Shown here piece by piece: positions 4,388-26,573 of a stretch of 26,695 nt of DNA. A program made the position numbers and the translations under genes. Source of the stretch: a virus; IMG/VR virus record IMGVR_UViG_3300022921_001037, positions 1-26,695 of that record. One strand, written 5' to 3'. Numbering within the stretch: the first letter of the stretch is position 1; each line of letters starts with the position of its first letter. The notes under the pieces are model-generated. The model saw only the letters and a program-made list of their open reading frames with translations, had not been told where the DNA came from and ran no database searches.

Positions 4388-5056
4388 CTATTTAGTCAAT
4401 ATTTCCGCGTTTCCTGCAATTGATACCCTTAAATTTTCACTGTGATAAGGTATCACTTGATGCTGTAACCAACTAGGGAATACTAACATATCTCCCTCTT
4501 CTGGTGATATGAAATATAAATTCTCATTATACTCATTATTTTCACCATAAAAGAACTGAATATCACCAGCATGTGGGAAGTCATTTATTTTTGGTTTGTG
4601 AGCATAAACAATAAATGATATACCCTTGGCATGTATATGTCTAGGTTGCCATGTATTAGCAAGTTGTCTATTTGCCCATATAGAATATACGGTGATAGAT
4701 TTTCGTTTATAATCTCTTGCTTCCACAGGTTCATTATATAATGCAACTAAGTAAGATGAGACTATAGAAGTTATTTCTGTTTTAACATCTGCTTGAGAAT
4801 GAAACCATTTATATAAGTCATAACTCTTAACAACAGAATTTTTAGTATCTTCAACCCAATTAGGATCACCTAATACAGGAAATGTAGGTAATAATTTTCC
4901 ATTATAATCCAAACTTGCAAATTTATCTTGAAAACTTTTAAGTGTTTCATTCGAAACTTTTGTTTTTAATATTGCAGGTCCGAAAGGTTTTATAATATCA
5001 ATATCACTATTAGCAAAACTTATTTGCGTTTCAAGTGATGCCATAAAGTCATTCAT
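4388..5056 (-). CDS. 2OG-Fe(II) oxygenase-like protein
   Basis: 222 aa, probable double-stranded beta-helix dioxygenase. The C-terminal half shows RHIHAKGISFIVYAHK (H140, H142), then GDMLVFPSWLQHQV with H199 and LRVSIAGN with R210, the layout of Fe ligand pair, distal His and 2OG-binding Arg in the 2OG-FeII_Oxy_5 / TIGR02466-like family. The first pair reads HxH rather than the classic HxD/E. It resembles the gene at 25974-26573 in this respect. It follows regA immediately (regA stop adjoins the ATG) and is the last gene before a terminator, taking the place gene 43 has after regA in T4. Substrate unknown. Confidence 0.75.
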   Translation of the reverse strand: MNDFMASLETQISFANSDIDIIKPFGPAILKTKVSNETLKSFQDKFASLDYNGKLLPTFPVLGDPNWVEDTKNSVVKSYDLYKWFHSQADVKTEITSIVSSYLVALYNEPVEARDYKRKSITVYSIWANRQLANTWQPRHIHAKGISFIVYAHKPKINDFPHAGDIQFFYGENNEYNENLYFISPEEGDMLVFPSWLQHQVIPYHSENLRVSIAGNAEILTK

Positions 5057-5467
5057 TTAAACTGTCTCTTGTTTTTTCTTCCCAATATTGTATTTTGTTT
5101 CTAGAACCCACTCGTTCTTCTCTTTGAACGCAATTACTTTAATCTGCGATAAGGGTGCTTGAACATCAATCTTTGCTTCATTGATTACAGATACAAGTCC
5201 CCAATCACTTAGTAATTTTACAATTGTGTTTCTACGACTTTGGTCTTCATCTGAAAAGTTTGTTTGCTTGCCATCTAGTCCAAAAAGTTCTTTGAAATGT
5301 ACAATGAAGTATCTACCTTGCTTATGTAAGATATGACAAGACTGATATAACTTTTTATCTTTCTTAGACGCAATCCCAATTCTAGAAAGCGTTTCTCTAA
5401 TTTTTAGAAAATCATCAGGTTGAGAAAGTTTAACCTCAACCATATTTTCAACTGTCCACTCATTCAT
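5057..5467 (-). CDS. regA: RegA translational repressor
   Basis: RNA-binding protein that represses translation of early phage mRNAs at their initiation regions. 136 aa; residues 9 onward align closely with T4 RegA (122 aa): PDDFLKIRETLSRIGIASKKD, LYQSCHILHKQGRYFIVHFKEL, LSDWGLV, and the KYNIG near the end. The start at 5467 is chosen because GGTGGAG lies about 6 bases upstream and its ATGA overlaps the gene 62 stop; a start at the internal Met (residue 9) would match the T4 N-terminus exactly but lacks a good ribosome site. It sits in the classic 44-62-regA order. Confidence 0.95.
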   Translation of the reverse strand: MNEWTVENMVEVKLSQPDDFLKIRETLSRIGIASKKDKKLYQSCHILHKQGRYFIVHFKELFGLDGKQTNFSDEDQSRRNTIVKLLSDWGLVSVINEAKIDVQAPLSQIKVIAFKEKNEWVLETKYNIGKKKQETV

Positions 5468-5847
5468 TTTGCTCCACCTTTATTTAATCTTTTTCTTATA
5501 AGTTCAATTTGTTTTTCAGAAAGGATAGATAGAGCAGAAATTGCTTTTGGGTATGAGTAGTTGAAGTATGCTTTTATACATTCTATATCGTCACTCTTCT
5601 CAAACTTCTGCCATTTATCAAATCGCTTTCGCTTACTTATACTATTTAGTAAATAATCAAATTGTAACTTTTTAGCAAGGTGTGGGCGTTGGTTCATCTC
5701 ATTCGCTTGCAGTACGGTATCAATACCCATACTCAAACCTCTATTGACAATAAAAGCATTGTAACTTTTTTCTGTCAAATCATCAACAATCAAATTCTCT
5801 TTAGTGTAATTGATTGCTTTAATATATTCAAAAGGATTATCGGTCAT
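5464..5847 (-). CDS. 62: Clamp loader small subunit gp62
   Basis: Small subunit that joins gp44 in the complex loading the gp45 clamp. 127 aa from the ATG at 5847 (a GTG lies one codon earlier); shorter than T4 gp62 (187 aa). Recognised by position between 44 and regA and by the stretch FIVNRGLSMGIDTVLQANEM followed by LLNSISKRKRFDKWQK, comparable to the T4 segment around GKRYGKWAK. No nucleotide-binding motif, as expected. The ribosome site is weak (GGA only), and the start overlaps the preceding oxygenase gene by 11 bases, so translation is probably coupled to that gene rather than directly to gene 44. Confidence 0.85.
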   Translation of the reverse strand: MTDNPFEYIKAINYTKENLIVDDLTEKSYNAFIVNRGLSMGIDTVLQANEMNQRPHLAKKLQFDYLLNSISKRKRFDKWQKFEKSDDIECIKAYFNYSYPKAISALSILSEKQIELIRKRLNKGGAK

Positions 5848-6556
5848 CACGTTTTACATTCCAAAAAAATACTTGATTAAGTCTCCAGTTTTTTGTATAC
5901 ACTTCATGATTACTTATATAACCACCATGCATATACCATCCAGGATATACAACAAGTCTATTATACTTAGCATCAACAATATCATACTTGATGCCAAGTG
6001 CGTTTAAATCTACACGAATATCATTCTCTTCTTTATATCCTAGAGTGGTTTCAATTTGCAATTTACCATCTACATGATAGAATGCAGTTCCACCTTCAGA
6101 ATGCTTATCTAGATATACGATACCCGCAACTTTAGTGTCACTATCTGTGTGAGGAAATTGTTGAAAGTTTTGTGTGGGAGTTTCAATCCATTTGAATAAA
6201 TTAAATCTACCAGGTTCTGGACTTCTTACAACTTTACACATGTCGAATGATGCATCAATCGCGTCCCATATAATCCTTTGATTATTATTTTGTGAAGTAT
6301 CGTTACTATAATTATCTTCTATAGTCAAACGACAATCATAATATTTTTCAAAGTTAAAAGATGGTAAGTTTTTATCCAAGTAATTCTTTTTGAATGCAGG
6401 TACATGAGCATCAATTAACATATCATGAATAGCATCTGGATTTTTATAGAAGTTATCACAGATAAAAATAGGACCTATACCATCAATATTATATATTTCA
6501 ACTTCAATATTACTTGAGACTGAAAACATCTCCATAGGAATATAAGGAACAGGCAT
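5837..6556 (-). CDS. 2OG-Fe(II) oxygenase-like protein inserted between 44 and 62
   Basis: 239 aa. Contains FPHTDSD (H136, D138), an intervening strand region, VVYPGWYMHGG (H210) and NWRLNQVFF (R225): the HxD...H...R pattern of Fe(II)/2OG dioxygenases, in a form resembling the DUF6445-type family. The upstream gene 44 ends in TAATG shared with this start, and the gene overlaps 62 by 11 bases, so it is translationally coupled on both sides within the clamp-loader operon. T4 has nothing here. The family pattern suggests a small-molecule or protein hydroxylase; substrate unknown. Confidence 0.72.
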   Translation of the reverse strand: MPVPYIPMEMFSVSSNIEVEIYNIDGIGPIFICDNFYKNPDAIHDMLIDAHVPAFKKNYLDKNLPSFNFEKYYDCRLTIEDNYSNDTSQNNNQRIIWDAIDASFDMCKVVRSPEPGRFNLFKWIETPTQNFQQFPHTDSDTKVAGIVYLDKHSEGGTAFYHVDGKLQIETTLGYKEENDIRVDLNALGIKYDIVDAKYNRLVVYPGWYMHGGYISNHEVYTKNWRLNQVFFWNVKRDDR

Positions 6557-7503
6557 TACTTAAACTCACAATCGACCATGACTTCAGTGAAGAATGCTAC
6601 CATGTTTACTTCTGGATCAGCAACATGAACATGTTTATACTGATAATCAGCAATCTTCAATACACAAGCAGGAACAGATTGTGGTTGTAAAGTTTCAGTC
6701 ATAGTGTCGTAGACTTTACGAAAGATGTCTGCGGCGTCACTTGTATTAACAGTTTCAGCAACCCACTTACGCATCTTCTGAAAGTCTTTGTCTTTACAGA
6801 ACTGAATAACTGCCTTGATTTCAACATCACCACTATTGCTTGCGCTTTCAGCATCGATAGTACCACCGATAGAAAGTTTCTGCAACTCGTTAAGAGTTCT
6901 GCGATAATCAGGAAAGAACTTCATTAGAAGACCAGCAACCGTACCTTCATCGTATGAGACATTCTCTTGTGCTAAGATATCTTGCACACGCTTGTTGAAG
7001 CGCATAGCAATCGCAGGACGCTCTTGCTTGGGAATGTTAAACTCAATAACAGAACAGCGAGAATGTAGTGCGGGAATAATCTTATTCTTGTAATTACAAG
7101 TAAAGATAAATCTACAATTCTTACTGAACTCTTCGATGAAGTTACGGAGTGCTGGTTGGGTAACGGCAGTTAGATAGTCTGCTTCATCATAGATGACGAC
7201 CTTGCCTTTACCTCCAAATGATACAGTTGAAGCAAAATTTACAATCTTAGTTCGTAGAGTATCAATATCTCCTTCGGAAGACCCGTTGAGAATAATCCAA
7301 TCGTACCCCATTTGCTGGCATAGTGCTTTTGCTACAGTAGTCTTACCTACGCCAGCAGTTCCACACAACAACAAGTTTGGTATTTCACCTTGTGTAACAA
7401 AGTCAAGAAAAGTCTTCTCTAAATGTTTAGGTAAAATAGCATCTTCTACAGTCTGTGGACGATACTTTTCGACCCACAGAAATTCATCACTTTTAATATC
7501 CAT
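6556..7503 (-). CDS. 44: Clamp loader AAA+ ATPase gp44
   Basis: Large (RFC-like) subunit of the sliding-clamp loader, 315 aa (T4 gp44 is 319). N-terminal VEKYRP at 11-16, Walker A GTAGVGKT at 48-55, Walker B VVIYDEAD with DEAD at 106-109, sensor strand FIFTCN, and the SRC arginine-finger motif at 148-150, followed by the helical lid and collar domains. GAGGA lies about 9 bases before the ATG, 21 bases after gene 45. Its stop overlaps the next start as TAATG. Confidence 0.97.
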   Translation of the reverse strand: MDIKSDEFLWVEKYRPQTVEDAILPKHLEKTFLDFVTQGEIPNLLLCGTAGVGKTTVAKALCQQMGYDWIILNGSSEGDIDTLRTKIVNFASTVSFGGKGKVVIYDEADYLTAVTQPALRNFIEEFSKNCRFIFTCNYKNKIIPALHSRCSVIEFNIPKQERPAIAMRFNKRVQDILAQENVSYDEGTVAGLLMKFFPDYRRTLNELQKLSIGGTIDAESASNSGDVEIKAVIQFCKDKDFQKMRKWVAETVNTSDAADIFRKVYDTMTETLQPQSVPACVLKIADYQYKHVHVADPEVNMVAFFTEVMVDCEFK

Positions 7504-7524
7504 TATATAATCCTCGTTGTTAAA

Positions 7525-8190: not shown

Positions 8191-8471
8191 TACAAATCCT
8201 CATCATGTATATACAGTTGTATTAGTGCGTAGTGTAGAACCTTCAACAGGTCTTTGCGGGCATCACTAGCAGTACCCTTTTTGCCGTATCGTTGTGCATA
8301 CTTTAGTACGTTACCGATACAGAAACCAGTGCCGTGTCCACCATCAATGATGAACTCGGTTGCTTGAAACTTGTCTTTTGAATAGTGACCATTCTCATAG
8401 GTGCTATCAATGTATGCTTGAAACTCTTCAATAAGTTTCTTCTCATTAAATTTATAATCGATTGTCTTCAT
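8190..8471 (-). CDS. DUF3310-like small protein
   Basis: 93 aa from the ATG at 8471; a longer reading to 8519 would start inside the terminator stem and is rejected. The C-terminal half (FCIGNVLKYAQRYGKKG ... ARKDLLKVLHYALIQL) is the pattern of DUF3310 (SaV-like) domains, in which a conserved N..KY..R/K..K motif is followed by a D..K...Y.. helix. T7 gp1.7, a nucleotide kinase, carries such a domain, but this short form lacks an obvious ATP loop. It precedes and is coupled to gene 45. A nucleotide-metabolism role is possible but unproven. Confidence 0.75.
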   Translation of the reverse strand: MKTIDYKFNEKKLIEEFQAYIDSTYENGHYSKDKFQATEFIIDGGHGTGFCIGNVLKYAQRYGKKGTASDARKDLLKVLHYALIQLYIHDEDL

Positions 8472-8489
8472 ATTCTCACTTTTCTCATG

Positions 8490-8518: not shown

Positions 8519-8539
8519 TTAGGTGACTATAATGATGAG

Positions 8540-8797: not shown

Positions 8798-8831
8798 ATT
8801 ATATTCACTCCATTAAGTTATGTTAAATGTC

Positions 8832-8852: not shown

Positions 8853-8866
8853 TATCAATTGTTTTA

Positions 8867-10060: not shown

Positions 10061-10078
10061 ATTTAGTCACCTCATTCA

Positions 10079-12686: not shown

Positions 12687-12715
12687 ACTATACCACAGAA
12701 TTATTTATATGTCAA
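12687..12715 (-). promoter_or_regulatory. sigma70-type promoter for the 48-aa membrane protein, with late-type box
   Basis: Minus strand TTGACA (12715-12710), 17 bases, TATAGT (12692-12687). The stop codon of the methyltransferase-like gene lies in the -35 box. The spacer contains TATAAATA (12709-12702), an exact match to the T4 late -10 element, so the gene may be read both early and late. Expected start from TATAGT is at or next to the ATG at 12680. Confidence 0.75.
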
Positions 12716-13395
12716 GCACTATTTTTAAAGATTGATGAAAATATTTTATAATTTGGGTTATGTGCATTCGATGCGAAATGAGCATATCTGGGAGATAGTA
12801 CTTGATTTTTATCCGCAATTTTTTCTACGGCAAGTACAACATCTTTTGTTATATCGCTATGATATACCTGCTTCAATCCATGAGTTTTCACTAAAATTTC
12901 TTCATATCGCTTATATTCTTCTTGGTCGGCAGTTTCTTGAATAATGATTATAGTACCATTATCCGCAACTGCTTGGCGCAATCTTAACAATAATGCACTC
13001 TTATTATCATAATCATTGAATGCATTCATAGAAAAAATCAAGTCTGCATTTATCTGTTTTGACATAATAAAGTCTTTGTAGAAATGGATATTACTATGTC
13101 TAATCTTACACTCATCTATCAACTCTTGGACATTACTATATCCAATTACTTTCTTAAATCCATATTGTGCTTTTAAGATAGATGCGCCATATCCCTTACC
13201 GCATTTTATATCCATTACAGTTTGCTCTTTTGGATTCACGATATAAGGTAACGCATAATGACGATAGGTGTTGTAGGCATATTTTTCAATGCCTACAATT
13301 TCATCATAATTATATGCCGTGTCAAAATCCTCATATGGAACAGGAGGATTATTGAATAGATTTCTACTTTTTATAAAAAACGAATATTGGTTCAT
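12712..13395 (-). CDS. SAM-dependent methyltransferase-like protein
   Basis: 227 aa, class I methyltransferase fold by pattern: motif I TVMDIKCGKGYGASIL at about residue 64, an acidic-end strand region, then NADLIFSMNAFNDYD as the motif IV area and a strand NGTIIIIQE. Motif I reads DIKCGKG in place of the usual DxGCGxG. The IFSMNAF segment lacks a DPPY-type nucleic-acid motif, so a small-molecule, lipid or protein target, or degenerate activity, is as likely as DNA. It overlaps the upstream DNA methyltransferase gene by 32 bases. Target unknown. Confidence 0.7.
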   Translation of the reverse strand: MNQYSFFIKSRNLFNNPPVPYEDFDTAYNYDEIVGIEKYAYNTYRHYALPYIVNPKEQTVMDIKCGKGYGASILKAQYGFKKVIGYSNVQELIDECKIRHSNIHFYKDFIMSKQINADLIFSMNAFNDYDNKSALLLRLRQAVADNGTIIIIQETADQEEYKRYEEILVKTHGLKQVYHSDITKDVVLAVEKIADKNQVLSPRYAHFASNAHNPNYKIFSSIFKNSA

Positions 13396-14920
13396 ATTTT
13401 AACCAGATGCCATTCACTTTGCAAAAATTCTTTGCTCGTGGTTTGCCTGTCTCCTCATCAACTCTGTTACCACCTGGCATCTGTGCAAGTGCCATCTTTA
13501 AGGTAGTAACATATTCAAAACCAAGTTCTTCACAAATTCTAATGCTGTCACCTTCAAGAGGTAGCATTTCATTGCCAAACTTTGCGTCAGCGATATTCCA
13601 CAATAAGTATCTATCACTCTTTAAGTATTTATATGCATTCTCTAAAGTCGGTTGCAAGAACCCCTCTACCCATGCGTCATATTGTCCGAACTTCTTATAT
13701 GACTGCTCCTCATCTTCACTATACGCTTCTTTCGCGAAATATGGTGGTGAAGTGAATACCATGTCGATGCTGTTTTCCTCACACGCAAAGGTCTCTGAAC
13801 CGACTTGATGAATTTCGTATGTGTTTGTGTGTGGGAAGAGTCCGTTACCTCTGTATGTTTTTTCATTAAAAAATCTCGCTAGTTCTTCGTATTTTGTTGA
13901 CTTGGTACCATCTTCCAATACAACAGTGTGGTCAGTGTTGGGATCAGTACCAATATAATGTATTGAACGGTCATCACGAACAGACATAGCACCCAGAATG
14001 CGACCACCCCAACCAGCACTAGGGTCCCAAATACGAATAGTAGACTGGTCTTTAAAATGTTCAGTATATTTCTCATAAAGATACTTTGCTGTAAGAGGAG
14101 GAAAATTGACTGCATATTGACACCATGAAATTCTAAAAGGTTTGAAACCTAATGGAAAGATTTTCTGACCTTTCTTAAAGTACATAATTTGATAAACATC
14201 GAATTCTTCTTTCATGTTCACTTTACACTTATCAGGAATGTTCAGTGTTTCGATTTCATCTCTCGTTAGAGTTAACCAATTTACACCTCGTAGTTTATCA
14301 TCATAACCTGTGTACTCTTGCTCTTTATCAGGTTTCAACCAGTAATCATGTGTATCGTATGTGCGACATGTAGTTTCAAACCAATTAATAAAATCAACAC
14401 CCCTATTAGCAGTGTGACGATTGGATCCAAACTCCAGTAGTTCGCCCGCCTTAATAGGGTTAGAATAATGATAGAAACTATCGCGCTTGAAATGACGGTG
14501 ACCATATGTGTATACCTTTTGAAATAAATCTTCATCAACAAAGTGGTCGTAGATAGATTTTGCTTTGCTGATATCGTTATAAACAATCTTTGTTTTCATC
14601 ATTGTAGGAAAGAACTGATTAGCGGCATTACCCACTACACTAGTGTTACGAATAACATCAGTTTCACCTGTCTCTTCATTATAACACTCAAAGTCTTTCA
14701 CATTGAATGATGACATTTTATTGAACTGGTCAATAATGCTTTGCTCATCCCAACCAACTCTAGGTGGTAGACCAAGCGTATCCCATGAGTAGACAACTTC
14801 TCTACGCATATCGCGCAACCACTGTCTGAACTCGTCATCTGTCATCCATAGAACCTCTTCGAATGTCTTGTTGACTTCGTGGTCTAATAGATAATTATTC
14901 TTCTCATAAAAATGCTTCAT
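13364..14920 (-). CDS. DNA methyltransferase (N4-cytosine/N6-adenine type)
   Basis: 518 aa. The catalytic part is C-terminal: SAM-binding motif I WDPSAGWGGRILGA at about 298-310, followed by IGTDPN, and catalytic motif IV MVFTSPPYF with SPPY at about 391-394, then a segment LLWNIADAKFG. TSPPY is typical of N4-cytosine and some N6-adenine methyltransferases, and the order motif I then IV fits. The N-terminal 290 residues match no domain I can name and are rich in aromatic and charged residues; they may be the target-recognition or a separate domain. It has its own promoter; no restriction endonuclease is seen nearby, so it probably protects or marks phage DNA, or regulates it. Confidence 0.8.
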   Translation of the reverse strand: MKHFYEKNNYLLDHEVNKTFEEVLWMTDDEFRQWLRDMRREVVYSWDTLGLPPRVGWDEQSIIDQFNKMSSFNVKDFECYNEETGETDVIRNTSVVGNAANQFFPTMMKTKIVYNDISKAKSIYDHFVDEDLFQKVYTYGHRHFKRDSFYHYSNPIKAGELLEFGSNRHTANRGVDFINWFETTCRTYDTHDYWLKPDKEQEYTGYDDKLRGVNWLTLTRDEIETLNIPDKCKVNMKEEFDVYQIMYFKKGQKIFPLGFKPFRISWCQYAVNFPPLTAKYLYEKYTEHFKDQSTIRIWDPSAGWGGRILGAMSVRDDRSIHYIGTDPNTDHTVVLEDGTKSTKYEELARFFNEKTYRGNGLFPHTNTYEIHQVGSETFACEENSIDMVFTSPPYFAKEAYSEDEEQSYKKFGQYDAWVEGFLQPTLENAYKYLKSDRYLLWNIADAKFGNEMLPLEGDSIRICEELGFEYVTTLKMALAQMPGGNRVDEETGKPRAKNFCKVNGIWLKYEPIFVFYKK

Positions 14921-14949: not shown

Positions 14950-14978
14950 ATCATACACTATATAGGAAACTTTGTCAA
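14950..14978 (-). promoter_or_regulatory. sigma70-type promoter for the DNA methyltransferase
   Basis: Minus strand TTGACA (14978-14973), 17 bases, TATGAT (14955-14950). The TGA stop (14977-14975) of the upstream oxygenase gene lies within the -35 box. Leader of about 23 bases, with no strong ribosome site visible (GTTGAGA). Confidence 0.8.
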
Positions 14979-15544
14979 GCGTTATCTTGTTTCTTCCAGG
15001 TAATATTCATACATTTCCAGGCAAGAGTAATTCTCAAGTCTGATTTATTTTTAGGTGCAAGTCCTCTATGAGTATGAATTGAAGGAAACATTACTAATCG
15101 ACCTGGTTTATAATCAATTTCTTCGCGCATAAATTCAAAGTTACCTATCAGGTCTGTATTTAAATAATTTGGCATGTATAATAAAGTCCATAAGTTTTTA
15201 CCAATACTCTTTGTTGTAGGCACATCAGAATGAAGTGTTCCGTCTAACTCATATGTGTGTCCGTTAAGATAAATGTCATCAACTTCATTTAGGTGATACT
15301 GAAATTCTCGTTGTGCTACTAATTGAATATATGTAACTAGAGGATCATCTTCAATCTTCATTCCCATTTCACTATCTATTGAAATCCAGAAAATGCTCTC
15401 ATCGTTTACCGCGCCACTACGATTACCATACTTCCAATTATATCTCTTAGTAAAATATTCACTTGACCACTGAATGAAAGTCTCATCAAATGCCCCATCA
15501 ACAATAAGAACGTCTGCCTGCAATTCATTATTAATTTCAATCAT
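14975..15544 (-). CDS. 2OG-Fe(II) oxygenase
   Basis: 189 aa, prolyl-4-hydroxylase-like. Shows TLHSDVP (H105, D107), a central strand LWTLLYMPNYL, then LVMFPSIHTHRG with H157 or H159 as distal ligand, and LRITLAWK with R171 for 2OG. The HxD...H...R set is complete. A good ribosome site (GGAGAAAG) precedes the ATG, 9 bases after the PLP-fold gene. Last gene of the long block that starts beyond the window at uvsY. Phage members of this superfamily are common in marine T4-like phages, with unknown substrates. Confidence 0.85.
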   Translation of the reverse strand: MIEINNELQADVLIVDGAFDETFIQWSSEYFTKRYNWKYGNRSGAVNDESIFWISIDSEMGMKIEDDPLVTYIQLVAQREFQYHLNEVDDIYLNGHTYELDGTLHSDVPTTKSIGKNLWTLLYMPNYLNTDLIGNFEFMREEIDYKPGRLVMFPSIHTHRGLAPKNKSDLRITLAWKCMNITWKKQDNA

Positions 15545-15553: not shown

Positions 15554-16321
15554 CTATGCCGCAACATTCCAAAACAAATTGGTTTTGCTTCTATCTATAT
15601 TTTCTTGTATTACTTTCCATGCTTTTGCGTCATATTCAGGCGCAGATGGAAATGGTGGTGCTTCAGATGCTTTCACAGGTTTATCATACTTGTATGCAGT
15701 CTCCCACAACTTCGCACGACCAATCTGCCTTTCATCTAACTTATGACCCGTCTGTATCACATGTACTTCGGACTCTGGGAATGCAAGTTGCAACCCTCGG
15801 TTCAGTGTTCCTGATGACCCTACTGTCCAGATTACGTCTGGCACTAGCGGTAGCGACTGCGCTACTTTCACTATACTTCCGAGAACCCAATCGTGTTCTA
15901 GTCCTAAAGGCAACGTCCTGCGGGTTTGCGGACTCTCTCTGCGGTATCGCTCTGCTCTTGACAGAGTAACATTTAGCATTCCCATCTTCACCCATTCGAT
16001 ACGACCTCCATACTCCATGTACTTTTGCTGATGCCAAGTTGGTTCTTTTCTATCTGCCCAAAAACAAGTTGATTTTTTACCATACTTTTGACAAACATAT
16101 GCTAATGAGATTGGACCCCAACCTACTTTGTTCGAACCACCGAACACCCACTCTTCGCAATCGGTATCCCGTATGAGTTTATCGATGAACCGCATTTTTG
16201 AACCTGCAGGTAGTAGGTCGTCCCGAACCACGATAACATCATCATGATTGCTAAGAACAGGCGCATCATAAGGGTCTTCCCAATCATTGACTAACTCTAA
16301 ATAATCTTCTGCATTTATCAT
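15554..16321 (-). CDS. PLP-dependent enzyme, fold type II-like (ACC deaminase / D-cysteine desulfhydrase-like)
   Basis: 255 aa from the ATG at 16321; a TTG three codons earlier is possible. VVRDDLLPAGSKMRFIDKLI resembles the PLP-lysine segment of ACC deaminase-type enzymes, with candidate lysine K42. GGSNKVGWGPISLAYVCQKYG fits the substrate-binding loop and helix, and TVGSSGTLNRGLQLAF the glycine-rich phosphate-binding loop. It is shorter than typical family members (about 320-340 aa). The middle of the gene (15780-15960) is about 53 percent G+C, clearly above its neighbours, suggesting recent acquisition. It overlaps the preceding fusion gene by 38 bases. Reaction unknown; amino-acid deamination or side-chain chemistry is the family theme. 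Confidence 0.62.
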   Translation of the reverse strand: MINAEDYLELVNDWEDPYDAPVLSNHDDVIVVRDDLLPAGSKMRFIDKLIRDTDCEEWVFGGSNKVGWGPISLAYVCQKYGKKSTCFWADRKEPTWHQQKYMEYGGRIEWVKMGMLNVTLSRAERYRRESPQTRRTLPLGLEHDWVLGSIVKVAQSLPLVPDVIWTVGSSGTLNRGLQLAFPESEVHVIQTGHKLDERQIGRAKLWETAYKYDKPVKASEAPPFPSAPEYDAKAWKVIQENIDRSKTNLFWNVAA

Positions 16322-17420
16322 TTGCTTCAATATCCACTACTAAATGAATTCTAGTATCATCACCATTATTCACTGCCATGTGTGGTTTTCGAATATCGAG
16401 GTACCACAGTTCACCTTCTTTCATATTAACTACATTCTTTACACCATGCATTGACCATGATGTGAACTCCATATTTGGATTCGTAATCACCGGAATATGT
16501 AGACGCATCATAGTGCCATCTGCTACTCCAAGATATGGATCAACTTGGTCTGTATGTCTACTCAATTCACCGCCACCTGGAGCGAGAGACATAAATCTAA
16601 CTCTCTCAATTCTATCGGTAGGAATCTTTGCAAGAATTTCATTTACATATGGAAATTGTTCACGCAATGGTGTGTCTTCACACTGCCAATCTTCCCATGT
16701 ATCATTATCTGCTTTCCATTTCTTATTCATCTCTACTGGTTTTGCAATAAATGATGGGTCTGGACGGTAACCTCGTAGTGAGATTGCTGACCATGCACCT
16801 TTTTTGTTGTAATTTGAGTAGTGATTTGTATACTCCATCGTCAATTTTTGTAGTTCGATGCGTATACGCGAGGTATCGATAGTATCAAAGTCACACTTTG
16901 CTATGGAAACCTCCTCAGCGCCGTCTATAGGCGGATGAGAACGATCCTCGAAAGAAGTGCTTGAATTGCGAAAGAATATGCTATAAATCTCTGCAAATGT
17001 TGTAATCTTACATCCAACATAATCAAATCCACAATCTTTAGCAAATTTGATAAAGTTATCATCTTCTGCCCAACCAATTAACCAACAATTTCTACTCTCA
17101 TAGTTACTGATATAGTTCTTTACATTTTCTGTATGATGTGAGATGTTTTGAATAACTACATCTCCTGGTTCTTTATATCCAATAATTGGACCTGCACCAT
17201 GCATTGTAATCTTTGAGCGAACTTTCGCTTCTGTAATATTAATCCAAGCATCACCTGCTTTTCTGAGTGACTTCTTATCTAAGTAGTCTGCAATATTATT
17301 CTTCTTAAATTGTGCAAAAGGACTATCCGTGTATGAATTATAGTGGTCATACTCCGTAGTAATTTCTTTTAGGTAATCTAACTGATAACCTTTCTGCCAA
17401 TCTTTCATTTCTTCTGTCAT
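16284..17420 (-). CDS. Fusion: N-terminal acetyltransferase-like region plus Asp/Asn beta-hydroxylase domain
   Basis: 378 aa. The C-terminal half (about 175-365) fits the aspartyl/asparaginyl beta-hydroxylase family of 2OG oxygenases: LSRHTDQVDPY with H289 and D291, MRLHIPVITN (R306, H308), GELWYLDIRKPHMAVN with H347, and TRIHLVVDIEA with R357. The N-terminal part has a segment (CWLIGWAEDDNFIKFAKDCGFDYVG, about 112-136) like the end of a GNAT acetyltransferase domain, but the acetyl-CoA loop is not clear. The hydroxylase call is strong, the N-terminal call weak. ATGA overlap with the JmjC-like gene upstream; the PLP gene follows with overlap. It could modify protein side chains or free amino acids. 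Confidence 0.75.
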   Translation of the reverse strand: MTEEMKDWQKGYQLDYLKEITTEYDHYNSYTDSPFAQFKKNNIADYLDKKSLRKAGDAWINITEAKVRSKITMHGAGPIIGYKEPGDVVIQNISHHTENVKNYISNYESRNCWLIGWAEDDNFIKFAKDCGFDYVGCKITTFAEIYSIFFRNSSTSFEDRSHPPIDGAEEVSIAKCDFDTIDTSRIRIELQKLTMEYTNHYSNYNKKGAWSAISLRGYRPDPSFIAKPVEMNKKWKADNDTWEDWQCEDTPLREQFPYVNEILAKIPTDRIERVRFMSLAPGGGELSRHTDQVDPYLGVADGTMMRLHIPVITNPNMEFTSWSMHGVKNVVNMKEGELWYLDIRKPHMAVNNGDDTRIHLVVDIEANDKCRRLFRVSQ

Positions 17421-17884
17421 TCATATGCTCCATACTCTATACTAAAACTCACAGATATTCTTGGCACTGTGACTGTTGGTTTGTGATTAACATTTGCTGG
17501 AATATATATCATTTGATTTAAACCAAGTTGACAATCATCAAAGCAATCTTCTACCCACCAATTAGTTCTCCCCTTTACCTGCCAAATATACACATCGTCA
17601 ATATCACTATGAACATCAACAGTGTTTTGTTGAGGAGACATGTTAGAATATATGTGACAGTTAACTTTATCTTTATCAGAAAGTCTTCTTTTTTCGAATA
17701 TAAATTTTCTAGTTTCTTCTACTTGCGGAATACACTCCGCACACAATATGATAAAGTTATCTTTGTTATGTTTTACGCCTTCCGAACCTCTCTGTTCGAT
17801 TGAATATGCATATGCATATGCTACATCATTCCAATCAAATAAATCAAAGTCATATTCAAAAACTTGTCTAAAATTAGGCAACAT
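17417..17884 (-). CDS. JmjC-like cupin oxygenase
   Basis: 155 aa. Residues about 75-150 form a cupin-like unit: VDVHSDIDDVYIWQVKGRTNWW with H92 and D94, then LGLNQMIYIPANVNHKP with H134, and a closing strand ISVSFSIEYG. The H-x-D plus distal H and the Q-x-x-G-x-x-x-W pattern resemble JmjC/ribosomal-oxygenase-type 2OG enzymes, though this protein is far shorter and lacks their extra domains. The ATG overlaps the end of the deformylase gene by 11 bases. A metal-binding cupin without 2OG activity is the alternative. Confidence 0.65.
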   Translation of the reverse strand: MLPNFRQVFEYDFDLFDWNDVAYAYAYSIEQRGSEGVKHNKDNFIILCAECIPQVEETRKFIFEKRRLSDKDKVNCHIYSNMSPQQNTVDVHSDIDDVYIWQVKGRTNWWVEDCFDDCQLGLNQMIYIPANVNHKPTVTVPRISVSFSIEYGAYE

Positions 17885-18413
17885 TCAACTTCAACTTTCC
17901 TTGTAGCACTAACTTCTTTAGTTTCTTATCTCTTGCTTTTAGTCCTCTTTCTAGAACTAACTTTGATGCTCGTTGTGTAAAGTCAATACCCATCATGTGG
18001 TCATACTCATGTAGAAACACTCTAGCAGTCATACCTTCAAATCGCATGTTCTTCGCTTCACCGGTTTCATCGTAGTAACTCACAAGACAAAATTTAGGAC
18101 GTTTAATTTGTAAGAACAAGAACGGCCATGTTAAGCAACCTTCTTTATAGTTGTCCATCTTATCATCAATTGTGAGAACTTGAGGATTAAACACATTCAA
18201 TCTCATATCATCAGTACCCATAACAAATACTTTAGTCTTTAGACCGACTTGTGGTGCAGATAAACCGACACCACCATAGTGTTTCATGTTAGTCCATAAC
18301 TGGTCAATAAGTTCTTTTGGGTCCATGAATGGATTATCAAAATCGAACTCAGGTGGTTTATTTCCTACTAAATCTTCAGCAGGTGTCAATTCTAGGATAT
18401 CACTCATCATCAT
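17874..18413 (-). CDS. def: Peptide deformylase
   Basis: Removes the N-formyl group from nascent proteins, using a bound divalent metal. 179 aa with all three family motifs: GVGLSAPQVG at 48-57, EGCLTWP with ligand C93, and HEYDH at 135-139 giving two His ligands and the catalytic Glu. A C-terminal basic helix follows. Deformylases are known cargo of T4-like marine phages, where they are thought to speed maturation of photosystem or phage proteins. The start lies in GATGATGATGAG at the end of the previous gene, so three consecutive ATGs are possible starts; which is used is uncertain. Confidence 0.95.
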   Translation of the reverse strand: MMMSDILELTPAEDLVGNKPPEFDFDNPFMDPKELIDQLWTNMKHYGGVGLSAPQVGLKTKVFVMGTDDMRLNVFNPQVLTIDDKMDNYKEGCLTWPFLFLQIKRPKFCLVSYYDETGEAKNMRFEGMTARVFLHEYDHMMGIDFTQRASKLVLERGLKARDKKLKKLVLQGKLKLNVA

Positions 18414-20818: not shown

Positions 20819-21882
20819 ACTACGTTATTACTCGCTTCCACATAAAGACGTTTCATGTCAGTCTTAATGCGTTGTTTATCTGCAGTTGTATCGACTTCAT
20901 CAACGTAAGTATTCAACAAATCTAACGTATCATCTAGTTTCAAATTCTTATCATCAACAAATGTCGCATCAAAGTCACTAAAGTCTTCAACTATTTTCAA
21001 CTCATGAACCCCTACATTATACAACAAATCAACTACTTTGTCAAATACTTTCGCATTAATTTTGTTGATTACTACCACCTTTACATATTTGTCTTTAAAA
21101 TCAGACGGATCAAAGTTCTCATATGACTTATCTCTATCGTTATATTCTAACTTTGCAAAGATTGTATAAGGGTTTTCTACGAATTCAATCTCTCTTGTTT
21201 CTGTGTCAAAGATGTGAAACCCTCTAGGATCACCATAGTCCGACCAAGTCATCTGATATGGATTACCGAGATATGTGATGTTACCTTGCGTTGACTTATG
21301 ATGGAAGTGACCTGAGCATACAAGTTCAAATCTATCAAATATCTTTCTATCAAGTCCGTGGTCAAAGTTCGTGAATCCTTTATACATCGTGAACCCTCGT
21401 ACTTCTAAATGACCTAACACAATCTCCGCATCGGTTTCAGAAATGACTTTCATTGTGTGGTCATAATTATCTGCACAAATCCAAGGAACGAATAAGAACT
21501 TTACATCATCTATAATTATATGCGCTGGTTCTGCGTGAATCCAAGGTTCGTTTTGACCATCAAACCCAGTGAATAAAGTTTCCATGCTATTTACTTCATT
21601 CGTGTTTTTGAAGTATGTGTCATGGTTACCAATAATCACATGTGTATCTACACCCATGCGACCTAGACGCCAGATGAAATCATGACGAAATTTCTGTAGT
21701 GTTTTGAAGTTTATGAACTTTCTTCTATCAGTAATATCACCTAAATGAATGCAATGTTTAATGTTATGCTCTTCTAGGTAAGGAAAGAAAGTGTTATCAT
21801 AGAACTTAAAAAAGTAATCATTAAATACATCACTATCATTTCTGGCACCAAAGTGGGTGTCAGTTATCAATGCTATTTTCAT
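20815..21882 (-). CDS. 47: Recombination nuclease subunit gp47 (Mre11-like)
   Basis: Metallophosphoesterase nuclease, 355 aa (T4 gp47 is 339). Motifs: TDTHFG (D8, H10), HLGDITDRR (D49), GNHDT (N86, H87), LGHLE (H158) and SGHFHH (H192, H194), the full two-metal site. AGGA lies about 9 bases before the ATG at 21882. The halogenase gene overlaps its start by 23 bases, so the two are probably coupled. Order 47 then 46 as in T4. Confidence 0.97.
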   Translation of the reverse strand: MKIALITDTHFGARNDSDVFNDYFFKFYDNTFFPYLEEHNIKHCIHLGDITDRRKFINFKTLQKFRHDFIWRLGRMGVDTHVIIGNHDTYFKNTNEVNSMETLFTGFDGQNEPWIHAEPAHIIIDDVKFLFVPWICADNYDHTMKVISETDAEIVLGHLEVRGFTMYKGFTNFDHGLDRKIFDRFELVCSGHFHHKSTQGNITYLGNPYQMTWSDYGDPRGFHIFDTETREIEFVENPYTIFAKLEYNDRDKSYENFDPSDFKDKYVKVVVINKINAKVFDKVVDLLYNVGVHELKIVEDFSDFDATFVDDKNLKLDDTLDLLNTYVDEVDTTADKQRIKTDMKRLYVEASNNVV

Positions 21883-23338
21883 TCACTATTTCCTCAATAA
21901 ATTCTCTATGTTTTTTATAGTTGCCAGGTGGTAAAGTACTAATACCATTTTCCCACATATGCTTGAATATTTCTCTATTACCAAGACCATTTAAATAGTC
22001 ACTGGCAACTTGTTTCGGTAAAAGGTCTAGACTATATAAAACTGTGTTCCAAGAAGTGTTATAGAATATATTATTGTCAGTATGCACTCCAATGTCTGTG
22101 TATTGTAGCACACGATACTGTGCAATGTCAATATATTTTTTAATATTTTCTGGTAAATGTGTTTTGTTTCTTTCTGCAACATGTTTCCAGAAAGGTGTAT
22201 CTTCTCTACAGTTCACATAATGCAATCTAATAAATTCAAACATATTTCTCATAATATTCTGAATTTCTCTATTATATCCATCAGTCACATTATTAGAGAA
22301 TCCTCTAGATGGTAAATGAACTGCTAGTGCTTTTGCTTGTTCTAAACCAACACCAATTGCAGTTGCTTCTAAAGGTTCGAAAAAGTGTGATGATAGTCCA
22401 ATCAGAACTACATTCTTATGCCAAGTTTTATTGTAGTATCCTGCTTCAAACTTAAATTGTTTTTTTACATCAGGTTCAAAACCAAGAACTTCTTTTACTT
22501 CTTGTACTGCTTCATCGAATGTTGTAAAGTTATCATTATATGCATATCCATTACCCATTCTCGTATATGTAGGTATGCGCCACATCCAACCATTTTTCAT
22601 TGCTTTGGCAGTAGTGAAACATCTATAGTTGTCACCTTCGTGTGGGCAAGGAAATGCAAACGCTGAATTTACAAACATGTCATCTTGCATTGACTGCCAT
22701 TTAAACTCAGGAATCTTCTTAGCGAGAATTCTTTGAAATCCTGATGCATCGACAAACAGGTCTGCTTCATATTCATTTTCTTTACTCTGAATAGAAAGTA
22801 ATCTACCATCATCTGCAAATGAAGTATCAACGATGTGGTCTTCATACACAACAATACCTAGTTGTTTACACATGCGAATGAGGAACTGATTGAGTTTAAA
22901 TGTATCAAAGTGATATTGTTTAGGAAAATTAGTACCACTACTATCTACCATACTTTTTGGTGGAACCATCCATTTATTTGCCAACTCTAATGGAACATCT
23001 GAGTTGTCCATGATACCGTAGTACCCGTATGGTTCACCATGAATTGTAAGTTCGGTTTTAGTTAGAGCGTGTAAATAGTCAGAATAATCTTTTTTCCAAC
23101 CCTCAAAATATACACCATATTTCAAAGTTGCATAACATTCTTTAACAATATCTTTTGGGTTTAGTCCCAGGATTTTGCGAAAGTTATCAAAATGTTCAGT
23201 AGAACTCTCACCAACTCCAACAATTGGAACTTCAGGAGAACCGACAACATAAACTGAAAGTCCAGGACGCAACTTCTTTATAGTCAATGCCGCAAATAAA
23301 CCTGCATTTCCAGCACCCACTATACCAATTGTATTCAT
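21860..23338 (-). CDS. Flavin-dependent halogenase (tryptophan halogenase family)
   Basis: 492 aa, FADH2-dependent halogenase by pattern. N-terminal FAD loop GAGNAG at 8-13, GVGESS at 41-46 (GVGEAT in the family), catalytic lysine position K73 in TLKYGVYFEGW (equivalent to PrnA K79), the GWMWRIP motif at 250-256 that separates halogenases from monooxygenases, and EPLEATAIG with E324 (equivalent to PrnA E346). All these residues are present, so it is likely active. A homologue from cyanophage Syn10, VirX1, has been characterised as a halogenase. It sits between sigma gene 55 and nuclease gene 47, with an excellent GGAGG ribosome site. No flavin reductase is seen here. Confidence 0.88.
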   Translation of the reverse strand: MNTIGIVGAGNAGLFAALTIKKLRPGLSVYVVGSPEVPIVGVGESSTEHFDNFRKILGLNPKDIVKECYATLKYGVYFEGWKKDYSDYLHALTKTELTIHGEPYGYYGIMDNSDVPLELANKWMVPPKSMVDSSGTNFPKQYHFDTFKLNQFLIRMCKQLGIVVYEDHIVDTSFADDGRLLSIQSKENEYEADLFVDASGFQRILAKKIPEFKWQSMQDDMFVNSAFAFPCPHEGDNYRCFTTAKAMKNGWMWRIPTYTRMGNGYAYNDNFTTFDEAVQEVKEVLGFEPDVKKQFKFEAGYYNKTWHKNVVLIGLSSHFFEPLEATAIGVGLEQAKALAVHLPSRGFSNNVTDGYNREIQNIMRNMFEFIRLHYVNCREDTPFWKHVAERNKTHLPENIKKYIDIAQYRVLQYTDIGVHTDNNIFYNTSWNTVLYSLDLLPKQVASDYLNGLGNREIFKHMWENGISTLPPGNYKKHREFIEEIVNENSIDN

Positions 23339-23340
23339 AC

Positions 23341-23913: not shown

Positions 23914-23924
23914 AATCTCTCCAA

Positions 23925-24392
23925 TTAGTGTTTTGTTATCTTACTTGCGTTATACAAATATTCTTCTATCTCATCTTGTAGTTCGGTGTTGTCACCAGGT
24001 TCGATGCTAATATTTAAATCATCTACCATACTCTTCAATCGTTTTAATCTTTCTATACTATTTTCATCTAAGTCATCAATCATGCTAGGCGGTGTTTCTA
24101 CCCTCAGTCTTTCAATTAGACGATTATAGTACATTATAACATCTTCTCTAGGTAATGTCAAGCATAAAATTTCTTTTTTTGAAATATGAAATATTTGATT
24201 ACCAGAAAAAGACTCCCACGGTCCGAACGTGGCGTTTTCATATGCACCACCACCTTCTCTGTCCTGTTGCATCCACTTATGTATTAACACAGGTTCTTTT
24301 AACGTAGCATATTCTTTCTCCTCACTTACATCAATTTTTGTTATAAGAGTGTCGCCATTTTTCAACTTCACTAGTCTTACTACTTCACTCAT
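23925..24392 (-). CDS. Sm-like phage protein, larger form
   Basis: 155 aa. The first about 100 residues look like an extended Sm fold: VRLVKLKNGDTLITKIDVS as strand pair, KEPVLIH, a glycine-rich insert GGGAYENATFGPW, then HISKKEILCLTLP. The C-terminal 50 residues are helical and acidic. The opening matches the pattern of the Sm-like gene at 3250-3555. ATGA overlap with uvsW and a 12-base gap before gene 55. RNA binding is an inference from the fold only. Confidence 0.65.
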   Translation of the reverse strand: MSEVVRLVKLKNGDTLITKIDVSEEKEYATLKEPVLIHKWMQQDREGGGAYENATFGPWESFSGNQIFHISKKEILCLTLPREDVIMYYNRLIERLRVETPPSMIDDLDENSIERLKRLKSMVDDLNISIEPGDNTELQDEIEEYLYNASKITKH

Positions 24393-25837
24393 ATCTTAAC
24401 CTTTATAATTTTATATTTAAATTTTTCTTCGTTATATTGTTTAATACGTTCTACAGCATGATCCAGTGTATAGTTTTTGTGGGCACCTCTACTCAAGTCA
24501 TCACTAATATCATATAATGTCGCTTCTGCCTTGTTATCCCCTAGTCTCAACCCACGCCCAATAGACTGAAGATTTCTAATTTTTGATTTAGATGGTGAAG
24601 CAAAAATGATGTTATGTAAGTTCCTAATGTTAATACCAGTACTGAAAGTGCCATAACTAGCAACAATAATTGCATCAGTTTCTTTCTCTGTGATTGCACG
24701 AATGTCTTCTCTTTCATTTGCATTAACTCCTCCATAGACAAAAAATACTTTTCTATCACCAACTTTTTCTTTAATCATTTCATATAATATCTTACCGTGT
24801 TTTTCAACATACTGAAATAGTAATAGAGTATTTCCTGTTTGATCCAAAGCGAGATTTTTTATAAAGTTATTTCTTGGTGCATGTGATACAAGAAAATCCA
24901 TCTCTTCTTGATAAGAGTATTTTTTAGTTGAATTTCTTACCTCATCAGAATAATTTAACATCAAACAATTAATTTTTAATTTTGCAAGTTGTCCATCTTT
25001 CATTAACTGCTTTGATGTTGTAAATCTGCGTACTTGACCAAATAATCCTTCTAACATTAACTTGTGCGTTTTTGCGTCATCTAGTGTTCCTGTCGTTCCA
25101 AAGCGCAACATAGCATTCTCACACTTCTCCATGAGCGTCTTTAGTGATGTTGCTTTAAATAGATGCGCCTCATCACCAATGACCATTGAGAAGTCTTTAA
25201 ACCATGCTTTGGGTAGTTTATATACAGACTGCCAAGTTGTAATTACTATTCTCTTATCGGTGTTCTTGTCATGTCCAGAATAAATTTTATGACAATTCTC
25301 ATCACTATCAAAACCATAATCTTTGAAGTCTTTATACATCTGTTCAACAAGAGAAGTTGTAGGAACAACTATAAGTACTCGTCCAGTTGTTGCTAGTCTA
25401 ATTAGTCCGTAAATGATTAATGATTTACCAGAACCGGTTGGAGATAGCATCATCAATCGTTTATCATTTATTCCATCTCTTATAGCATCAACTTGATAAT
25501 TTCTAGGATTAAAAGGAAGATTTAAGTCCAATAATGCCTTCACAACATCTTCTGTAGTTATTTCACTTTTTTTAACTACACTAGACTGACCCAATAGTTT
25601 ATATTCTCTAGTTCGACAAAACTCTTCTAAGTGATGCATCAATCCAATATACAATTGCTTTGTCCACATATTGAATAATCTTATTTTACCATCCCACATC
25701 TTATTTCTAAATGTAGGCATAAATTCTGCACCAGGAACTTTAAACGTAAAGTACTCTGATAGTTCCATAAGAACACCAGCATCTTCACATTCTACAGTCA
25801 TAAAGACTTCGTTCACTTTAGTTAGAATTATATTCAT
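24389..25837 (-). CDS. uvsW: UvsW-type DNA/RNA helicase
   Basis: SF2 helicase that unwinds branched DNA and R-loops and shifts origin-dependent to recombination-dependent replication. 482 aa (T4 UvsW is about 500). An N-terminal substrate-binding domain, then PRNYQ at 111-115, Walker A SPTGSGKS at 132-139, GDEAH at 221-225, motif III GTTGT at 247-251 and motif VI QSIGRGLRLG near 430. The start at 25837 overlaps the rubredoxin-like gene by 20 bases. Confidence 0.96.
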   Translation of the reverse strand: MNIILTKVNEVFMTVECEDAGVLMELSEYFTFKVPGAEFMPTFRNKMWDGKIRLFNMWTKQLYIGLMHHLEEFCRTREYKLLGQSSVVKKSEITTEDVVKALLDLNLPFNPRNYQVDAIRDGINDKRLMMLSPTGSGKSLIIYGLIRLATTGRVLIVVPTTSLVEQMYKDFKDYGFDSDENCHKIYSGHDKNTDKRIVITTWQSVYKLPKAWFKDFSMVIGDEAHLFKATSLKTLMEKCENAMLRFGTTGTLDDAKTHKLMLEGLFGQVRRFTTSKQLMKDGQLAKLKINCLMLNYSDEVRNSTKKYSYQEEMDFLVSHAPRNNFIKNLALDQTGNTLLLFQYVEKHGKILYEMIKEKVGDRKVFFVYGGVNANEREDIRAITEKETDAIIVASYGTFSTGINIRNLHNIIFASPSKSKIRNLQSIGRGLRLGDNKAEATLYDISDDLSRGAHKNYTLDHAVERIKQYNEEKFKYKIIKVKI

Positions 25838-25961
25838 CTGTTATATCTACAAAACTCTTATATGATGCACCACACTCAGGACAAACATAGTCCGGTGTTA
25901 AAGGTCCTTCTATCTCTTCAAAATATAGTTCACCGCATATAGCACATTGATATACTTTCAT
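25818..25961 (-). CDS. minimal rubredoxin-like protein
   Basis: I translated this 47-aa gene by hand. CAIC at 6-9 and CPEC at 27-30 (with following G-A-S) give the CxxC pair of a rubredoxin or zinc ribbon; the second motif region YVCPECGASYKSF is close to the rubredoxin consensus DWVCPVCGAPKSDF. It is shorter than a classical rubredoxin (about 52-54 aa), the loop between the cysteine pairs being cut down. GAGG lies 9-10 bases before the ATG. It lies between a 2OG-type oxygenase gene, 12 bases away, and uvsW, which it overlaps. Electron transfer to a redox enzyme is plausible; a structural zinc site is the alternative. Confidence 0.8.
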   Translation of the reverse strand: MKVYQCAICGELYFEEIEGPLTPDYVCPECGASYKSFVDITDEYNSN

Positions 25962-25973
25962 TGCGTTACTGCC

Positions 25974-26573
25974 TCATAATACTTCATTCAATAGTTTTTC
26001 GGAATCAGAAATTGGTGCATCTAAAGGTAAACCAATATCCATTACTATTGAAATTCTTTCATTATCAGTAAGATTTGCTTCTGTCTCATGCTCTAACCAA
26101 GAAGGAATAGCAATAACACCATTTTGATATGAATTCATTATCGTAAAAGGTTCAGGACCTAAAGGTAATAACTTGTGAGGATTCGTATTATGAATTACTA
26201 AATTACCATTTTCTCCATCATGCTTAATGTACCACACAATGCTATAAAGTTTCTTCATTCTATAATGACAATGTTGACCATGATGCTCATACTTTGATGC
26301 AAAGTTCATCCATAAAGTGTGAGGTATCAAATCAACCCCATGTAAGTCAGAAAAGTATTTTATATATTTTTCTTTAAATGCATCAAGTGCAGTATCTTTA
26401 GTATCTAAAAGATTAATTCTTGATGGACTTGTGGGTCCTTTCTCTACATTTTTATAACGATGCCAATCAATATGTGCTTTTCTTAACTCATCTACCCATA
26501 AGTCAGGATCGGCAGTTATAACAGGAAACATATCTGTGTATATTTTTGTTGGAAATAACTCAACAGTGTTCAT
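25974..26573 (-). CDS. 2OG-Fe(II) oxygenase-like protein
   Basis: 199 aa. Starts NTVELFPTKIYTDMF, the N-terminal pattern of TIGR02466/2OG-FeII_Oxy_5-like proteins. The core shows HHGQHCHYRMKKLYSIVWYI (H101, H103), then GVIAIPSWLEHETE with H162 and NERISIVMDI with R173. As in the gene at 4388-5056 the first ligand pair is HxH. The ATG shares its last base with the UvsY stop (TAATG). It is followed by the rubredoxin-like gene. Substrate unknown. Confidence 0.78.
   Translation of the reverse strand: MNTVELFPTKIYTDMFPVITADPDLWVDELRKAHIDWHRYKNVEKGPTSPSRINLLDTKDTALDAFKEKYIKYFSDLHGVDLIPHTLWMNFASKYEHHGQHCHYRMKKLYSIVWYIKHDGENGNLVIHNTNPHKLLPLGPEPFTIMNSYQNGVIAIPSWLEHETEANLTDNERISIVMDIGLPLDAPISDSEKLLNEVL

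Follow-up and report, generated by a model that had tools for sequence, protein, structure and literature searches.

Why should one stretch of phage DNA carry six genes for proteins of the Fe(II)/2-oxoglutarate (2OG) oxygenase type among its replication and recombination genes? The question is raised by IMGVR_UViG_3300022921_001037, a 26,695-base viral record of a T4-like aquatic phage, which we refer to as the window. An earlier note, made from the sequence alone, had placed such proteins at 4388-5056, 5837-6556, 14975-15544, 16284-17420, 17417-17884 and 25974-26573, and all six reading frames are present there with candidate iron ligands and an arginine. A coordinated modification pathway was one reading that the note offered. 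Our analysis supports DNA modification for one of the six, the protein encoded at 16284-17420, and speaks against a single pathway of all six. From sequence comparison, we consider it reasonably likely that this protein forms a three-gene DNA-hypermodification module with a pyridoxal phosphate (PLP) enzyme (15554-16330) and a DNA methyltransferase (13364-14920), all three genes lying on the minus strand. The PLP enzyme had been mentioned in the earlier note, the DNA methyltransferase had not.

The oxygenase fusion and its two partner genes

The gene at 16284-17420 encodes a fusion of a GNAT-like domain (residues ~1-150) with an Fe(II)/2OG oxygenase of the AspH/L-proline-hydroxylase type (~170-366). 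The C-terminal half matches PF05118 (AspH) with 57.3 bits against a cut-off of 22.6, and its metal site (H289, D291, H347) and 2OG arginine (R357) are invariant in all 65 alignment rows, which comprise 63 of 69 complete proteins, the window protein and a homologue from mycobacteriophage LilMcDreamy. Structure prediction with AlphaFold2, which among the six oxygenase-type proteins covered this one, gave a model with a mean pLDDT of 93.3. The double-stranded beta-helix anticipated by the earlier note is present in it: in VIA-align, the oxygenase domain reaches Z ~16 with 7v4m, 4p7x and 4p7w (16.6 for 7v4m, over 157 residues at 2.5 Å) and ~15 with AspH. Its closest solved relatives are L-proline cis-4-hydroxylase, which acts on free proline, and a hydroxylase from nucleoside-antibiotic biosynthesis. 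Both the Foldseek and the VIA lists cover the oxygenase part of the fusion. For the N-terminal domain, hhalign gave a probability of 89% (E 2.2e-6) to a phage protein whose own match to Acetyltransf_1 reaches no better than E 0.077, and three sub-threshold PDB matches include two acetyltransferases (E 0.15 and 0.19; 1tiq we take to be a GNAT). In GNAT enzymes, the acetyl-CoA loop motif (Q/R)xxGx(G/A) follows strand 4; the loose pattern occurs in 15 of the 65 rows, in none of them after the fourth strand (~residues 92-97), and we therefore call the domain only GNAT-like.

The frame at 15554-16330 overlaps the end of the fusion gene and encodes a fold-type II PLP enzyme of the PALP family (phrog_7093, 125 bits). 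Its K45 is invariant in all 44 rows of the alignment (40 of 87 proteins, the window protein and three others) and aligns with the RDDL...GxK lysine of 1-aminocyclopropane-1-carboxylate (ACC) deaminase 1j0a, a residue that presumably holds PLP. The window protein scores 20.9 bits with the Pfam PALP model, whose cut-off is 35, while four homologues score 40.1, 46.3, 44 and 43.5 bits and a distant one 34.5; weak matches are to ACC deaminase, cysteine synthase and serine dehydratase.

The methyltransferase gene (13364-14920) encodes a predicted DNA enzyme of the N4/N6 amino type (PF01555, 30.4 bits against a cut-off of 26.7) with an N-terminal domain of ~250 residues. Motif I reads DPSAGWGGR and motif IV TSPPYF; D299, P300, S301, G303, R307 and T390-F395 do not vary among the 28 rows aligned (27 of 30 proteins plus the window). 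The AlphaFold2 model has a mean pLDDT of 87.1, its viral structural neighbours include several named N4-cytosine DNA methyltransferases, and a homologue in a Vibrio phage is annotated as N-4 cytosine-specific DNA methylase.

How closely the three genes belong together can be seen in relatives from IMG/VR. A scan with the 16284 protein gave 24 confirmed stretches and one with its alignment 227, of which the best 80 were kept; a further scan kept the best 80 of 569, so that all counts refer to samples ranked by similarity. The resulting set holds 73 loci with distinct fusion proteins, 34 of which extend at least 4 kb downstream (one of these, L012, is the window's own phage). Among these 34, the methyltransferase lies near the fusion in 31, PALP in 29 and both in 28, compared with 30 for gp46 and 25 for peptide deformylase; nine of the 31 methyltransferase matches (120-135 bits) and five of the 29 PALP matches (79-161 bits) are weaker, and the loci without a methyltransferase are L014, L027 and L124. 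Of 60 loci with PALP downstream, 51 have its frame overlapping or abutting the fusion gene. In nine loci no gene separates fusion and methyltransferase, seven of these pairs overlapping by 4 bases; L163, the one of the nine searched whole for PALP, has none in 90 kb. Ten loci have PALP near the methyltransferase but lack the fusion, three of them (L042, L043, L062) being too short upstream to tell, and record G011 has the pair with no fusion found in 97 kb. Judged by these sequence arrangements, the methyltransferase looks like the hub of the module.

Searches of whole records covered 18 related records of 51-150 kb, drawn from 20 handles; G008 (20 kb) and G019 (27 kb), both with the fusion, were set aside as short, and since all records are fragments, absences are soft. 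All 14 records with the fusion also have the methyltransferase family, as a weak match 22 kb away in G007 and as weaker matches in G014-G016, and 12 of the 14 have PALP (the others being G007 and G018). The set also occurs at other places in T4-like genomes, beside gp62, regA and DNA polymerase in L196 and near cobS and gp45 in L119. Within the window's clade, identity among the three module proteins is 75-94%, a level comparable to that of gp46 and gp47, and dN/dS is about 0.06-0.14, synonymous changes greatly exceeding non-synonymous ones.

PLP enzyme and DNA methylase are also linked in cultured phages. In the Erythrobacter phages R6L and ZS04, the Pseudanabaena phage Pam4 and contig L100, PALP is inserted within a DNA methyltransferase, between motif I (DPFAGGSVR) and motif IV (CPPY). 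The uninterrupted methyltransferase of Microcystis phage Mae-JY30 aligns to both flanks, at 51-76% identity before the insertion and 57-59% after it, and PALP is a separate neighbouring gene in L102 and in Mae-JY30, where it is the next gene. The inserted PALP of Pam4 (L198 3768-6257) is a distant member, with 30 bits to the PALP profile. In Staphylococcus phage Alsa_1, a PALP of 43.5 bits, above the cut-off of 35 (L191 7649-8377), and a homologue of the window's methyltransferase are separated by about 1 kb; with this PALP, a search of the phage collection matched the Alsa_1 and Pam4 records only. In Mae-JY30, PALP has annotated ParB/sulfiredoxin genes beside it, the ZS04 protein appears, in our own reading of its sequence, to start with a ParB-type region, and the PALP/methylase genes of both phages are close to terminase genes.

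The surroundings of PALP vary among relatives, and additional genes are often inserted between it and the methyltransferase. In some loci, the place of PALP itself is taken by a very distant member of the family (27% identity). In L195 (3716-4396) a PAPS-reductase-domain gene (137 bits) stands between PALP and methyltransferase, and a PAPS reductase is also annotated in the vicinity of the methylase-PALP gene of R6L; as a general link to sulfur, this was rejected, as no relative was found in L001-L187 at E up to 1 and the R6L gene, too, remained unmatched. Putative genes for a PfkB/HldE-type kinase and a sugar-isomerase-type cupin were recognised by eye in the PALP-methyltransferase interval of L136, L155, L173 and L182, as was a putative dCMP deaminase inside the operon of several loci. 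A glycosyltransferase-like gene follows PALP in L053-L055, L057-L059 and L071 (e.g. L054 8774-10147); the one tested scored 23.9 bits with Glycos_transf_1, below the threshold of 26.4. Loci L074-L110 (e.g. L077 3653-7254) come from another phage group, in which two or three conserved proteins of ~320-410 residues without a Pfam match precede PALP; two of these proteins resemble one another weakly. These loci possibly represent a second PALP-linked pathway; a relationship of two of the conserved families to amino acid:DNA transferases (ADDT) was not supported.

Target, chemistry and competing explanations

A hint at what the module might act on comes from mycobacteriophage LilMcDreamy. Gp4 of LilMcDreamy is a homologue of the whole fusion, with 30% identity over 66% (tblastn) and a structural match of 370 aligned columns (TM 0.78/0.80). 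It directly follows gp3, an ADDT (47.3 bits, cut-off 26.2); also upstream are genes for ParB and a queuine-transferase-like protein, while the terminase genes come just after it. No other phage record in the phage collection matched the AspH fusion at E 1e-5. Among 84,980 species of bacteria and archaea, a pattern-based scan turned up the fusion at just two loci. Both are on T4-like phage contigs in metagenome-assembled genomes, and one has gp62, regA and DNA polymerase rather than gp46 next to the module. A metabolic gene borrowed from a host would be expected in hosts. Taking the PALP insertion in a methylase, the ADDT context in LilMcDreamy, the PF01555 assignment with its N4-cytosine neighbours and the phage-only scan together, we infer that DNA is probably the target.

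We propose that the module probably adds an amino-acid-like group to a base. The methyltransferase-fold enzyme would flip out the base and act on its exocyclic amine, and as an SPPY motif favours cytosine N4, this is the favoured position. The PLP enzyme could then make or rearrange an amino-acid-like substituent. Fold-type II PLP enzymes form an aminoacrylate and couple it to ring nitrogens in the plant synthesis of beta-substituted alanines; a beta-replacement adding an alanyl side chain is for this reason a candidate step, and processing of an aminocarboxypropyl group derived from S-adenosylmethionine (SAM) would be an alternative. The AspH domain would subsequently hydroxylate the added group, which the GNAT-like domain might bind or acylate, and the modified DNA would likely serve resistance to restriction. 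This specific scheme, in which a PLP enzyme cooperates with a DNA methyltransferase, within whose chain it lies in some phages, to build an amino-acid side chain on an exocyclic amine for an AspH-type dioxygenase to hydroxylate, is put forward tentatively and carries much less weight than a DNA-modification module as such.

Several observations weigh against the module. Neither PALP nor the methyltransferase was matched in 9.7 kb of LilMcDreamy, and ADDT was matched in none of the 14 fusion-bearing records, a search whose control matched nowhere either. L014/G007 has the fusion without PALP, and G009 and G012 have PALP without the fusion or a methyltransferase of this profile. Homologues of the methyltransferase occur in Bacteroides phage DAC16, Mammaliicoccus phage PMS3 and Vibrio phage 2.058 with no PALP or fusion match in 12-kb stretches; they have the motif-I arginine and PPYF..E.Y in common with the window protein, and these features are thus unspecific and were rejected as marks of the module. 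Many of the loci are related and have T4 gene order in common, and their counts are not independent. To this come the weak assignment of the N-terminal domain and the structural affinities of the methyltransferase, whose catalytic domain has tRNA enzymes as its best solved neighbours (Trm11, Z 16.3).

The last point leads to the first of the competing explanations, according to which the module modifies tRNA or rRNA, for instance to evade anticodon nucleases, with PLP and AspH enzymes elaborating an exocyclic amine. Trm11 is accompanied by TrmN, Trm14 and m1A58 enzymes among the top structural neighbours (Z 14-16), and a PDB search with the methyltransferase profile returned two chance-level matches and no DNA methyltransferase. 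However, PF01555 is a DNA methylase family, as is the annotation of the Vibrio phage homologue, PALP lies within or beside DNA methylases and, in two phages, close to terminase genes, and the LilMcDreamy fusion adjoins ADDT and ParB; we regard an RNA target as rather improbable. The same holds, if a little less firmly, for separate metabolic cargo, in which free host amino acids would be hydroxylated and deaminated, the methylase would serve ordinary anti-restriction and adjacency would merely reflect T4-like synteny. The affinity of the AspH domain to L-proline cis-4-hydroxylase and of PALP to amino acid enzymes would fit this, as would a match to a nonproteinogenic amino acid hydroxylase model (22.7 of 300 bits, far below the cut-off) and the auxiliary genes common in this neighbourhood. 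Yet the pattern-based scan turned up no fusion in hosts, the association persists at other genomic places and as a domain insertion, and the module is conserved like gp46, which makes cargo unlikely. AspH and GNAT families commonly act on peptides, a peptide of factor X is bound to AspH among the structural matches, and the GNAT-like domain is fused to the oxygenase, all of which could suit an anti-defence small molecule or the modification of a phage or host protein; with a DNA methyltransferase as the usual partner and DNA-modification loci as the outside contexts, we think this very unlikely.

Equally far-fetched, in our view, is a single coordinated pathway of all six oxygenases, the halogenase and the PLP protein. 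All are found in one window and are largely common to its clade, and the 14975 and 17417 genes sit in the same operon as the module, whose PALP-methyltransferase slot so often takes up additional genes. The earlier note had named correlated presence across relatives as the test, and here the idea fails: the 16284 family is found in 14 of the 18 records, compared with eight for phrog_81, eight for phrog_274, five for DUF6445 and six for the 17417 type, and these other families cluster in G001-G006, which make up the window's clade among the 18. All five DUF6445 records belong to this clade, the six of the 17417 type, which is seen mainly there, are G001-G006 themselves, and the 4388 protein is matched in four of the 20 records. 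Each of the eight fusion-bearing records outside the clade (G007, G013-G018, G020) has none to three matches of the phrog_81, phrog_274, DUF6445 or 17417 types. At the 34 loci, the 17417 type occurs seven times, the 14975 type six times and the halogenase five times, nearly always in the window's clade. One six-oxygenase pathway was rejected as the main reading on this co-occurrence, and the DNA-hypermodification module of fusion, PALP and methyltransferase remains our preferred reading.

The other oxygenases and the phage setting

The remaining five oxygenase-type genes, likewise on the minus strand, are diverse: the earlier note had spoken of at least four subfamilies, and profiles distinguish five families among the six proteins. 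Five of the six pass a curated Pfam cut-off (2OG, JmjC/cupin or DUF6445), the sixth being the phrog_274 protein at 14975. The ligand motif by itself is weak and unspecific evidence, because the loose pattern H-x-[HDE]...H...R matches five of the 24 other window proteins; it also misses two of the six.

Three genes lie outside the module. The PF13759/TIGR02466-type protein at 4388-5056 (PF13759, 59.9 bits against 27), beside regA, has H140/H142-H199-R210 as candidate ligands and arginine. The DUF6445 protein at 5837-6556 (PF20043, 50.7 bits against 24), between gp62 and gp44, has H136/D138-H210-R225 and matches PF13759 at E 0.13 only. The PF13759/phrog_81 protein at 25974-26573 (31.2 bits against 27), with H101/H103-H162-R173, stands between uvsY and uvsW, the same place as an annotated 2OG gene (T4-GC 412) of cyanophage S-ShM2. 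Several oxygenases per genome are ordinary for such phages and already described: 2OG-FeII proteins are listed for 14 of 16 cyanophages in PMC3037559, where a single genome has up to five entries, and a passage of PMC9599517 gives eight non-orthologous 2OG genes across a pelagiphage group. The S-ShM2 synteny points the same way, and the three genes look like ordinary marine-phage 2OG genes, separate from the module. One relative of the window, G003 (IMGVR_UViG_3300017909_001085, 125,860 bases), has eleven distinct 2OG/cupin-type places, against at most five 2OG entries per genome in a table row of PMC3037559.

The other two genes are located in the module's operon, diverge faster and are missing from most other loci. 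The small Fe(II)/2OG-type protein at 14975-15544 occupies the slot between PALP and methyltransferase (phrog_274, 69 bits; 2OG matches below threshold), and its candidate set H105/D107-H159-R171 is invariant in seven of seven relatives. The label of phrog_274, 'DNA endonuclease V', is probably wrong, since aligned members carry the conserved HxD...H...R set, and Foldseek matches the 16284 oxygenase model to a P-SSM2 protein with this name (E 8.5e-6). The JmjC_2/cupin-type protein at 17417-17884 (PF08007, 29 bits against 22), directly upstream of the fusion gene, has H92/D94-H134 with R142, the first three being invariant in seven of seven relatives. In the window's clade, the 14975 and 12712 proteins and the halogenase are 35-56% identical (35-53% for 14975 and halogenase alone), the 17417 protein 31-72%. 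Both oxygenases are faster-changing operon neighbours that might tailor the module's product. The 12712 protein (12712-13395, minus strand) is a class I SAM methyltransferase (Methyltransf_23, 31.1 bits against a cut-off of 27), whose frame overlaps the end of 13364-14920; it matches general SAM methyltransferases, and its type occurs in six of the 73 loci.

The neighbours named in the earlier note were also recovered. DNA polymerase gp43, regA, gp62, gp44, gp45, gp46, gp47 and gp55 are recognisable in the window, together with CobS/CobT-like proteins, UvsW and the C-terminal end of uvsY (26579-26695). A tryptophan-halogenase homologue (21860-23338; PF04820, 326 bits) lies between gp47 and gp55; it is 43-53% identical in close relatives, and halogenase matches occur in 70 phage records, mostly of Synechococcus and other cyanophages. 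An unlisted four-cysteine frame of 51 residues (25818-25973, minus strand), whose two CxxC pairs recall a rubredoxin or a zinc ribbon, separates uvsW from the 25974 oxygenase. Peptide deformylase (17874-18413), directly upstream of the 17417 gene, is near the fusion gene in 54 of the 73 loci. The window as a whole has only five short nucleotide matches in the phage collection; IMGVR_UViG_3300020174_000010 has the same genes at 100% protein identity and, by these sequences, is probably the same phage. A cyanobacterial host was considered and set aside, with no Photo_RC match in the 14 fusion-bearing records (fragments).

Comparison with known systems

Amino-acid-derived groups on DNA are known from the hypermodification of 5-hydroxymethyl-dU in phages such as M6 and ViI, which employs aG/PT-PPlase and amino acid:DNA transferase. 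The ADDT gene beside the LilMcDreamy fusion is a likeness to this system, whereas the window's module has an amino-type methyltransferase as its putative hub, and ADDT was not matched in the 14 fusion-bearing records, where the control had no match either. Mom of phage Mu, which carries out adenine carbamoylmethylation, connects a GNAT-like fold to a base amine, and we know of no AspH or PLP partner of Mom. If our proposal holds, many uncultured T4-like phages would possess an undescribed route to DNA hypermodification, and PLP and AspH chemistry would join the DNA-modification toolbox; to our knowledge, PLP chemistry would then for the first time be applied directly to a flipped base in a DNA modification, and an AspH enzyme would for the first time have DNA as its substrate. 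Given that cultured phages carry parts of the module, namely R6L, ZS04 and Pam4 (the insertion), Mae-JY30 (an adjacent PALP) and LilMcDreamy on M. smegmatis (the fusion), the prediction is directly testable.

The 2OG genes of marine T4-like and pelagic phages, as listed in parts of PMC3037559 and PMC9599517, resemble the 4388, 5837 and 25974 genes in kind; the AspH fusion, in contrast, matched LilMcDreamy alone among phage records at E 1e-5. In the open-licence literature, we found no published phage system combining PALP, methyltransferase and AspH; term searches of PMC5512222 and PMC8670742 gave no PLP or pyridoxal, and the main text of PMC12783734 contains none of the terms PLP, pyridoxal, oxoglutarate, hydroxylase or acetyltransferase. 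The system described in that main text, CmoA/CmoX/CmoY of Synechococcus phage S-B43, is nevertheless the one to compare. CmoX, a C5-type enzyme, carries an SPPC motif and is partnered by an ATP-dependent ligase, whereas the window's module has SPPY, with TSPPYF in all 28 methyltransferase rows, and a PLP enzyme and an AspH oxygenase as partners (PMC12783734). In its logic, however, the 5-carboxymethylcytosine system is like the proposed module, as a methyltransferase homologue makes a handle on cytosine to which another enzyme couples an amino acid, and it is often linked to ParB-domain genes (PMC12783734), just as ParB is encoded near the fusion in LilMcDreamy.

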